Source: Alkaliflexus imshenetskii DSM 15055 (GTDB taxonomy: Bacteria > Bacteroidota > Bacteroidia > Bacteroidales > Marinilabiliaceae). Taken from it: a stretch of 64,000 bases of DNA. Below, one piece after another: positions 39,022-40,547 of the stretch; the first letter of the stretch is position 1; every line of letters starts with the position of its first letter. A program made the translations under genes and the position numbers. Location of the stretch: positions 1,534,405 to 1,598,404 of the forward strand of contig NZ_KI912105.1 of assembly GCF_000517065.1 (NCBI RefSeq), in the 5' to 3' direction. Below the pieces are notes generated by a model that saw nothing but the letters and a program-made list of their open reading frames with translations, was not told the origin of the DNA and ran no database searches.

Positions 39022-39048
39022 GTCATTAATAAACGCACGTTATCATAT

Positions 39049-39084
39049 AAAAAAGCCGCTAGAGAAAAACTATCGGCTTTTTTA
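39049..39084 (+). terminator. Terminator of the coiled-coil protein gene
   Basis: AAAAGCCGCTAG and CTATCGGCTTTT form a 12-bp stem with one mismatch and a 7-nt loop, followed by TTTATTT. It lies 28 nt after the stop codon. Confidence 0.8.
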
Positions 39085-39149
39085 TTTCTCCATGTAGTAT
39101 TCTTTTGCCAGAGTCACAGTCTTAAGGCTTGTTTAGCACGCGGTTTTAT

Positions 39150-39605
39150 GCATCGTTCCTACGGAACTCAATCGATTTATTAGTTGTTCCTGTGACCGGA
39201 TTAAAATCCGGCCTTATAAGACTAGCCGTTCCTCCGGAACTCTCGAGAAAAGGGCTGTGACAATAGAAAAGATAGCCTTTATAGAAGAGCCATAGGCTCG
39301 AATTATTTTGTAAGGATGGACTTTAGTCCATCTGGTAAAGGTGTAGCATGCTATGCGAGAGCCGTAGGCTCGGGCCATGTTTGGATAGGATGGAATATGT
39401 AGCGTTCCTAAGGAACTCAACGAATTTGCTAGCTGGACTTGTGACCGGATTAAAATCCGGCCTTACAATATAAAACGTTCCTACGGAACTAAATATATAA
39501 AGTAACCTTTATGCCAGAGACGTAGGCTCGGATATGTTTTGTAAGGATGGACTTTAGTCCATCTGGTAAAGGTGTTGCATGCTATGAGAGAGCCGTTGGC
39601 TCGGG
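39150..39605. repeat. Tandem duplication of a six-palindrome composite repeat
   Basis: Two units, each with the palindromes in the order A-B-A-C-D-C. A is GTTCC-nnn-GGAAC (39155, 39228, 39404, 39477). B is CCGGATTAAAATCCGG (39196, 39445). C is GAGCC-nnn-GGCTC (39287, 39359, 39517 with one mismatch, 39590). D is GATGGACTTTAGTCCATC (39315, 39546). The A elements repeat at 249 bp and the D elements at 231 bp, because unit 2 lacks about 18 bp between the second A and the first C. An exact 39-bp match covers D (39306-39344 and 39537-39575). It lies between convergent genes and encodes no protein. Confidence 0.9.
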
Positions 39606-39626
39606 GCTTTTTTGGAAAGGGCGTTT

Positions 39627-40547
39627 TTATGGTTCCAACTCGCCCAGCTTATATGGCGTTGACTGATACACGTAGTAGTTTAGCCAATTTGAATAGAGCA
39701 AATGGGCATGGCCACGCCAGGTAACCACAGGCTTTGCCTCGGGATTATCTCCGGGGTAATAATTCTCAGGAACGGCAATCTCCATTCCTTTATTGATGTC
39801 GCGCCAATACTCCTCTCCCAAAGTATTTTCATCATACTCCGGATGGCCGGTTACAAAAATTTGCCGACGATCTTCTGATATGGCCAAAAACACGCCTGCC
39901 TCTGGTGACTGGCTCAATAAAATAAGGCTTGGCGCGGCATTGACATCCTCAACACGCACCTCGGTATATCGCGAATGCGGCACTTGATACACATCATCAA
40001 AACCACGAAGTAAAGGCTCCTTGGGCAGAAGCACATCGTGGTTAAACACGCCAAACATTTTTTTTGTAAGTTCAAACTTTTGCACACCAAAATGGTAGTA
40101 CATTCCGGCCTGTGCTCCCCAGCATATATGAAAAGTGGAGGTAACATGCTTTTTGCTCCACTCCATAATTTCACATAACTCGGGCCAATAGGTCACTTGC
40201 TCAAAGTCGATTAACTCAACAGGAGCACCGGTAATTATCATCCCATCAAAATACTGATCCCTGATTTCATCAAATGTCTTATAAAAAGCCACTAAATGCT
40301 CCTGCGGTGTGTTGCGATGTGCATGCGATGAAGTCATCATCAACTCTATCTCCACCTGCAAGGGTGAATTTGAAAGCACCCGAAGCAGATGTGACTCAGT
40401 GACAATCTTAAGGGGCATCAGATTCAAAATGAGTATCTTCAAAGGCCGGATATCCTGGGATTCGGCCCGGCTGGCCCCCATAACAAATACATTTTCAGCC
40501 TCGAGCAAAGCCTTTGCAGGAAGCGTATCAGGAATATTAACAGGCAT
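39627..40547 (-). CDS. metA: Homoserine O-acyltransferase, probably acetyl-CoA specific
   Basis: First committed step of methionine synthesis from homoserine. The 306 residues align with MetA without gaps at the key sites: Cys142 (HICWGAQ) as the acyl acceptor, His235 and Glu237 (TGHPEYD) as the catalytic pair. Residue 111 is Glu (GAPVELIDF), where the succinyl-CoA-using E. coli enzyme has Gly. Glu111 is known to favour acetyl-CoA in Bacillus MetA, so O-acetylhomoserine is the likely product despite the usual succinyltransferase name. It is 101 bp downstream of the tetR gene; no riboswitch was identified in that gap. Confidence 0.95.

Follow-up and report, generated by a model that had tools for sequence, protein, structure and literature searches.

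What kind of element is the cluster of short palindromes lying between two convergent ORFs at 39147-39620 of the window (the whole 64-kb stretch of Alkaliflexus imshenetskii DSM 15055 DNA analysed here)? An earlier note described four palindrome types in the fixed order A-B-A-C-D-C, twice in tandem, with kept spacings, a deletion of about 18 bp in unit 2 and no encoded protein. This description largely holds. The order is present in both units, which are offset by 249 bp, and the start-to-start spacings A-B (41), B-A (32) and D-C (44) are common to both, with C-D at 28 and 29. Aligned to each other, the units are identical at 186 of 230 positions (81%), and the 20 gap columns comprise one 19-base gap, corresponding to the deletion, and one single-base gap. 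No ORF of at least 80 aa was found within 39150-39605. However, the claim that all stems are intact fails at the first C of unit 2 (GAGAC-GTA-GGCTC), where one pair is lost, leaving 11 of the 12 stems in the array intact. The palindromes GTTCCnnnGGAAC and GAGCCnnnGGCTC each occur four times in the window versus 0.01 expected by chance, one of the latter (2042-2054) outside the array. Feature coordinates are collected in Table 1.

Table 1 Features of the palindrome array and its surroundings, in window positions unless stated otherwise.
Feature	Position	Strand	Details
Inverted repeat, 16 nt	39047-39085	.	A/T ends, 94% complementary; terminator-like by eye, absent from the consensus terminator scan list; outside and before the array
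Palindromes of unit 1	A 39155-39167, B 39196-39211, A 39228-39240, C 39287-39299, D 39315-39332, C 39359-39371		
Palindromes of unit 2	A 39404-39416, B 39445-39460, A 39477-39489, C 39517-39529, D 39546-39563, C 39590-39602		
Module 1, type I	39149-39243	+	GTTCC-TAC-GGAAC (39155-39167), CCGGATTAAAATCCGG (39196-39211), GTTCC-TCC-GGAAC (39228-39240); covariance model R1 90.0 bits (R1 built partly from this module)
Module 2, type II, inverted	39284-39378	-	GAGCC..GGCTC (39359-39371), GATGGACTAAAGTCCATC (39315-39332), GAGCC..GGCTC (39287-39299); R1 90.9 bits (in seed)
Module 3, type I, second unit	39398-39492	+	R1 90.5 bits (in seed)
Module 4, type II, inverted, second unit	39515-39609	-	Outer hairpin 39517-39529 broken; R1 83.2 bits (in seed)
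Upstream ORF, 297 aa	38128-39021	+	Ends towards the array
Downstream ORF, 306 aa, convergent	39627-40547	-	From the ORF list; resembles homoserine O-succinyltransferase MetA
Nine arrays of the genome	Contig C5, near 597, 599, 912, 1573 (window), 1656, 2219, 2673, 3853 and 4023 kb		

The unit of this array is a three-hairpin module of about 95 bp in two inverted subtypes, rather than the six-palindrome composite originally proposed. On the minus strand, C-D-C repeats the geometry of plus-strand A-B-A: the centres of a short and a longer hairpin lie about 42 nt apart, another short hairpin follows at about 30 nt, and the two trios share a CC-NNN-GG apex and a CCTTAyAA-type linker after the middle hairpin. 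Hairpin 1 has a 5-bp stem and a 3-nt loop with the CC-NNN-GG apex and is followed by about 28 nt; hairpin 2 has a 6-7 bp stem and a TAAA-type loop; and about 16 nt of conserved linker (CCTTAyAAnAT..) separate it from hairpin 3, which is short again and has an apex like that of hairpin 1. Type I modules (GTTCC, CCGGATTAAAATCCGG) and type II modules (GAGCC, ATGGACTAAAGTCCAT) differ by compensatory stem changes, as seen in the alignment of 13 modules from this genome, and they alternate in orientation along the window (I> <II I> <II).

Selection on hairpins, also proposed earlier, is supported in that stems are kept by paired changes, though not in the sense that every stem is intact. Among the 13 modules of the genome, 96.6% of cells are paired and 35 carry double changes. 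A set of 60 modules (own genome, relatives and four MAG loci, with the alignment fitted to the covariance model) gave 96.8% paired cells and double changes at 12 of 16 pairs, with 190 double-change cells versus 62.8 in shuffled and at most 60 in slid alignments, although the split between type I and type II stems is essentially a single event counted many times. Within modules, the two outer hairpins share an identical 5' arm in 30 of the 60 and agree at stem positions 2-3 in 34 of the 60 versus 16.8 by permutation. The non-Watson-Crick cells of this set include 10 G-T and 13 A-C, and therefore give no sign of G-U tolerance or excess on either strand, which fits pairing as DNA. When folded as DNA and compared with shuffles, one type II module was clearly stabler (z -3.4) and one type I module only mildly so (z -1.8).

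The window repeat is a dispersed family. The genome (4.12 Mb, five contigs) contains nine arrays, all on contig C5, in agreement with the earlier note's view that this is not a plain satellite but a family; a genome search for copies had been suggested there, with a unique unit taken to indicate local duplication, and the unit is not unique. An additional GTTCC match at 1530490 lies inside a gene and looks like chance. Covariance model R1 gave 18 matches in the genome, 13 of them in its seed, and at E 1e-4 it had matches in 11 of the 71 genomes of the source family, own genome included, those of the relatives lying close together on both strands. A strict type I pattern scan of a genome contig collection (84,980 species by its description) returned 15 stretches: eight from Flavobacterium and kin, counting [Flexibacter] sp. 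ATCC 35103, three from the source family (two genomes) and four from MAGs, including one Prolixibacteraceae and one Lentisphaeria by name. Exact strict-pair copies numbered 0 to 3 per genome in eight Flavobacteriaceae genomes, and a search of viral contigs gave 0 matches. Local tandem duplication of an immobile, chance hairpin cluster would account for two tandem units 249 bp apart, but not for nine arrays, for relatives with matching architecture or for the chance expectation of 0.01 per short palindrome; plain local duplication was rejected on the dispersed copies, and we give it almost no credence. The literature covered on Flavobacterium and Bacteroidota repeats, a coverage outside which most subscription journals fall, contained no description of this family.

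Larger arrangements were also seen. For example, two multi-module arrays (about 92% identical over 358 bp) form direct repeats flanking a 359-aa ORF at L041:3523-5538, and loci L108 and L109 of genome G007 carry a composite of about 500 bp, with ACCCC hairpins, a GCCAC-GTGGC hairpin and then a type I module, in some five near-identical copies by eye. This genome had no Y1_Tnp match in the profile search.

Presence and absence could be compared at an intergenic site in Flavobacterium, where 65 genomes matched of 121 searched and 30 loci among the matches listed were compared. A hairpin pair or tandem pairs occupied this site in 10 of the 30 (segment 245-405 bp), the repeat was absent in 19 (113-228 bp) and one retained a remnant. 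The repeat part of the Flavobacterium query also matches elsewhere in six genomes. Presence and absence alone fit either gain or loss; we infer gain.

Paired stem changes could also have arisen if the modules were functional RNA elements kept for the host, such as 3' UTR hairpins, bidirectional terminators or mRNA stabilisers. By ORF calls (no annotation), the neighbouring genes are convergent around six of the nine arrays, codirectional around two and divergent around one, with the 2673-kb array overlapping a doubtful 130-aa ORF and the 599-kb array lying close to a gene start; the predominance of convergent pairs suits such a role, as do terminator-like matches, of which the array contains three and the 900-bp region four (0.9 when shuffled). 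However, the array is preceded by a separate terminator-like inverted repeat (Table 1), the repeat is missing from most of the orthologous Flavobacterium loci, the stems show no G-U excess, the hairpins track a transposase, as set out below, and an Rfam search of the 64-kb window at gathering score gave 0 matches, on which an Rfam RNA family was rejected. Maintenance as host RNA elements is accordingly unlikely, and a secondary role of the modules in mRNA ends is possible.

The transposase in question is a subclass-1.2 tnpA gene that adjoins modules in four of the 15 strict-scan stretches, full-length (about 155 aa) in three and cut to 108 aa in L151. Both flanks of these four stretches match each other, and they therefore represent one orthologous Flavobacterium place. 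At that place F. johnsoniae CI04 (L158, 474-660) has a hairpin array without tnpA, reflecting either gene loss or an ancestral array. The Flavobacterium gene carries type I and type II pairs on its two sides in opposite orientations. Its product is an HUH/Y1 protein of about 155 aa that scores above the cut-off of NF033573 (IS200/IS605 transposase), matches Pfam Y1_Tnp and, in L154 (Flavobacterium sp. Leaf82), matches the solved ISHp608 enzyme in sequence at E 2.5e-10; it bears the YxxxQxxHH signature that PMC6006769 assigns to TnpA-Y1 subclass 1.2.

Related enzymes were found beside the same stems in other lineages. When nine genomes selected for the presence of modules were searched at the protein level, enzymes 66% (G327) and 60-61% (G325) identical to that of Flavobacterium were found. 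The G327 enzyme is flanked by GAGCC pairs, including a short-long-short trio in the window's order that is led by TGTGCC, as is the module at 4023 kb of the window's own genome, and the G325 enzyme is flanked by GAGCC and GTTCC hairpins. Short stems common to the module and to subclass-1.2 tnpA flanks occur at L146, L154 and L155 in Flavobacterium and at L231, L232 and L235, an exact-stem linkage that covers three lineages, two of them MAGs picked because modules were present, of which G325, labelled Lentisphaeria, may be mis-binned. Within the source family, L160 encodes an enzyme 55% identical in a layout like that of the Flavobacterium gene, with different stems. In a tree of 36 of 43 rows (for the seven dropped, the motif search gave no single ORF), the six rows of Flavobacterium, G325 and G327 enzymes form a 100/99 clade with L160, and a GTTCC or GAGCC stem occurs in one of the 29 rows outside it. 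This label changed 3 times on the tree versus 6.6 when shuffled (0 of 500 as low), with the caveat that the G325 and G327 rows were chosen for modules and so are not independent of it.

Subclass-1.2 loci in general are accompanied by similar hairpins. The enzyme was searched for in 198 genomes (G000-G197), including all 71 of the source family, at E 1e-5, and 30 loci among the matches listed, one per genome, were taken as the subclass-1.2 set, all 30 bearing the signature. Their 600-bp flanks, delimited by tblastn, contain 96 five-pair CC-NNN-GG hairpins versus 1.44 in dinucleotide shuffles, distributed over 24 of the 30 loci (on both sides in 12, none at six). Distal segments, which were not matched for being intergenic, held two hairpins in 51, and a subclass-1.1 control of five loci only gave 4 versus 0.34 when shuffled, in two of the five. 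Six of the 30 subclass-1.2 loci have a strict unit of hairpin 2, linker and hairpin 3, a count made with flank limits that are wrong for contig-end loci. Stem sharing follows enzyme identity (Mantel r 0.51 for 31 loci, five of the 36 tree rows having no stem and being left out), and does so with near copies removed (r 0.37, 28 loci) and also without Flavobacterium and the clade's G325 and G327 members (r 0.36, 25 loci), with 0 of 10,000 permutations as high in each case. Judged by these sequence comparisons, stems co-diverge with the subclass-1.2 enzyme.

Mobilisation by a class-2 RAYT (TnpA-REP), for example one of the genome's own two Y1 genes, is the other enzymatic candidate, and a search for a RAYT-like transposase had been proposed at the outset. 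That search led to the linked transposase, but the enzyme is a subclass-1.2 IS200-like Y1 protein rather than a class-2 RAYT and has no match in the window's own genome at E 1e-5. Both own Y1 genes do encode Y..NP motifs, and at L159 a class-2 Y1 gene (NF047646 66.1 bits, below the cut-off of 80) lies about 100 bp from hairpins. However, other palindromes flank each own Y1 gene (by eye), on which grounds mobilisation by these two genes was rejected; identical short stems on both sides of the gene are seen with subclass 1.2, whereas at L159 module hairpins lie on one side only; and GT[AG]G occurs near hairpin 2 in only 13 of the 60 modules (the looser RTAR in 47). A class-2 RAYT is thus a very improbable agent. 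On the opposite strand the linker precedes the middle hairpin; there it contains GTAG in many of the Flavobacterium copies, while GTAA or ATAA predominates in the window's genome, and a guide-like role of this tetranucleotide is possible.

Several palindromes beside these class-2-type genes are of other kinds. Nested inside the subclass-1.2-type array beside the class-2 Y1 gene, at L159:6190-6228, is a long perfect palindrome that carries CTCAC/GTGAG close to its ends and resembles a double-foot REP. In the window's genome, L020 (G000:C5 near 2724914) has a class-2-type Y1 gene (YIHQNP) with a long palindrome within the reading frame and, downstream, an array of GATGACTCCAAGTCATC hairpins with a period of about 68; it resembles a REPtron whose gene has taken up a REP insertion. 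The palindromes flanking the second Y1 gene (Y..NNP; L019, G000:C5 near 3461104), CGAGTTACAAACTCG and CCGATTTGCAATCGG, apparently represent a further repeat family of this genome.

Modules and subclass-1.2 enzyme do not coincide genome by genome. At E 1e-5 there was no enzyme match in the window's genome or in the module carriers G007, G010 and G034, and enzyme matches occur in 7 of 11 module-carrying versus 36 of 60 other genomes of the family, so there is no co-occurrence by genome. Genome G024 has both modules and six enzyme matches; in the five of its enzyme stretches that were inspected, the stems are different or missing. Perfect GTTCC or GAGCC stems were absent from 20 stretches around the Y1 matches of G024, G001, G022, G009 and G016, and a motif search of 17 stretches from relatives found no Y1 genes beside modules. 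The window array is best read as a relic or a trans-dependent population, in a genome that presumably either once had the enzyme and lost it or received its repeats from a carrier.

Taken together, we consider it likely that the array in the window is BIME-like and consists of a mobile, non-autonomous repeat that depends on a TnpA-Y1 transposase of subclass 1.2 for its movement, with cleavage and movement deduced from sequence patterns. Binding of single-stranded DNA hairpins by a Y1 enzyme, followed by cutting and rejoining, is established for IS200/IS605 elements and REPs, and the mechanism proposed for the window repeat is drawn by analogy from this general processing. Module hairpins would most likely form in single-stranded DNA, where an IS200-like HUH/Y1 enzyme belonging to TnpA-Y1 subclass 1.2 would recognise them; hairpin units would then be cut and joined at new sites by strand transfer, and tandem growth would produce arrays. 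More broadly, we lean towards the view that TnpA-Y1 subclass 1.2 is a full, missed REPtron class of Bacteroidota, whose two- or three-hairpin substrates, with 5-bp stems and a CC-NNN-GG apex, would evolve together with their enzyme, move about as inverted composites and, once the enzyme is lost, survive as orphan arrays like that of the window. Such a class would supply probable substrates for a transposase subclass to which the main survey assigned none, making its activity directly testable. It would also carry the REP/BIME lifestyle over to another branch of the Y1 enzymes, with hairpins of another design, and would account for the intergenic palindrome clusters seen here in several Bacteroidota.

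REP/BIME systems with class-2 TnpA-REP (RAYT) are best known in Proteobacteria, and in REPINs inverted REP pairs form the mobile unit. The window family resembles REPINs in its inverted pairs, but each arm is here a three-hairpin module. REP/BIME sequences are described in PMC2817692 and PMC6006769 as short extragenic palindromes of alternating orientation with Y and Z subtypes, a flanked Y1 gene and paired stem changes, and the window family likewise consists of dispersed extragenic palindromes of alternating orientation with tandem growth and related subtypes; its stems change in pairs, and in other genomes it flanks a Y1 gene. In contrast to REP/BIME, the family has a module of three hairpins, of which the outer two have stems of only 5 bp and a CC-NNN-GG apex; a strict GT[AG]G foot is lacking, and the linked enzyme is of subclass 1.2 rather than class 2. 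Copy number also differs: REPs usually exceed 100 per genome according to PMC2817692, whereas nine arrays and 18 R1 matches were found here in 4.12 Mb.

IS200/IS605 elements (IS608, ISDra2) share the HUH/Y1 transposase and hairpins at the IS ends (PMC8266576), but here hairpin arrays, rather than one hairpin per end, flank the gene, and gene-less copies exist. An IS200/IS605 MITE, in which a single hairpin at each end would enclose a deleted tnpA of subclass 1.1, does not fit, the module having three hairpins and the linked enzyme YxxxQxxHH. A further counterpart is TnpA-Y1 subclass 1.2 as described by Quentin et al. 2018 (PMC6006769), with which the linked enzyme shares its length class, the DHVH and YxxxQxxHH motifs and its occurrence in Bacteroidetes. 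There, the subclass is generally without typical terminal IS200 structures and Table 1 gives 'no' under REP, whereas flanking hairpins are strongly enriched at the present loci. The automatic search of that survey required GTAG/GTGG and basal stems of at least 7, and the 5-bp hairpins of the present family would therefore fail it.
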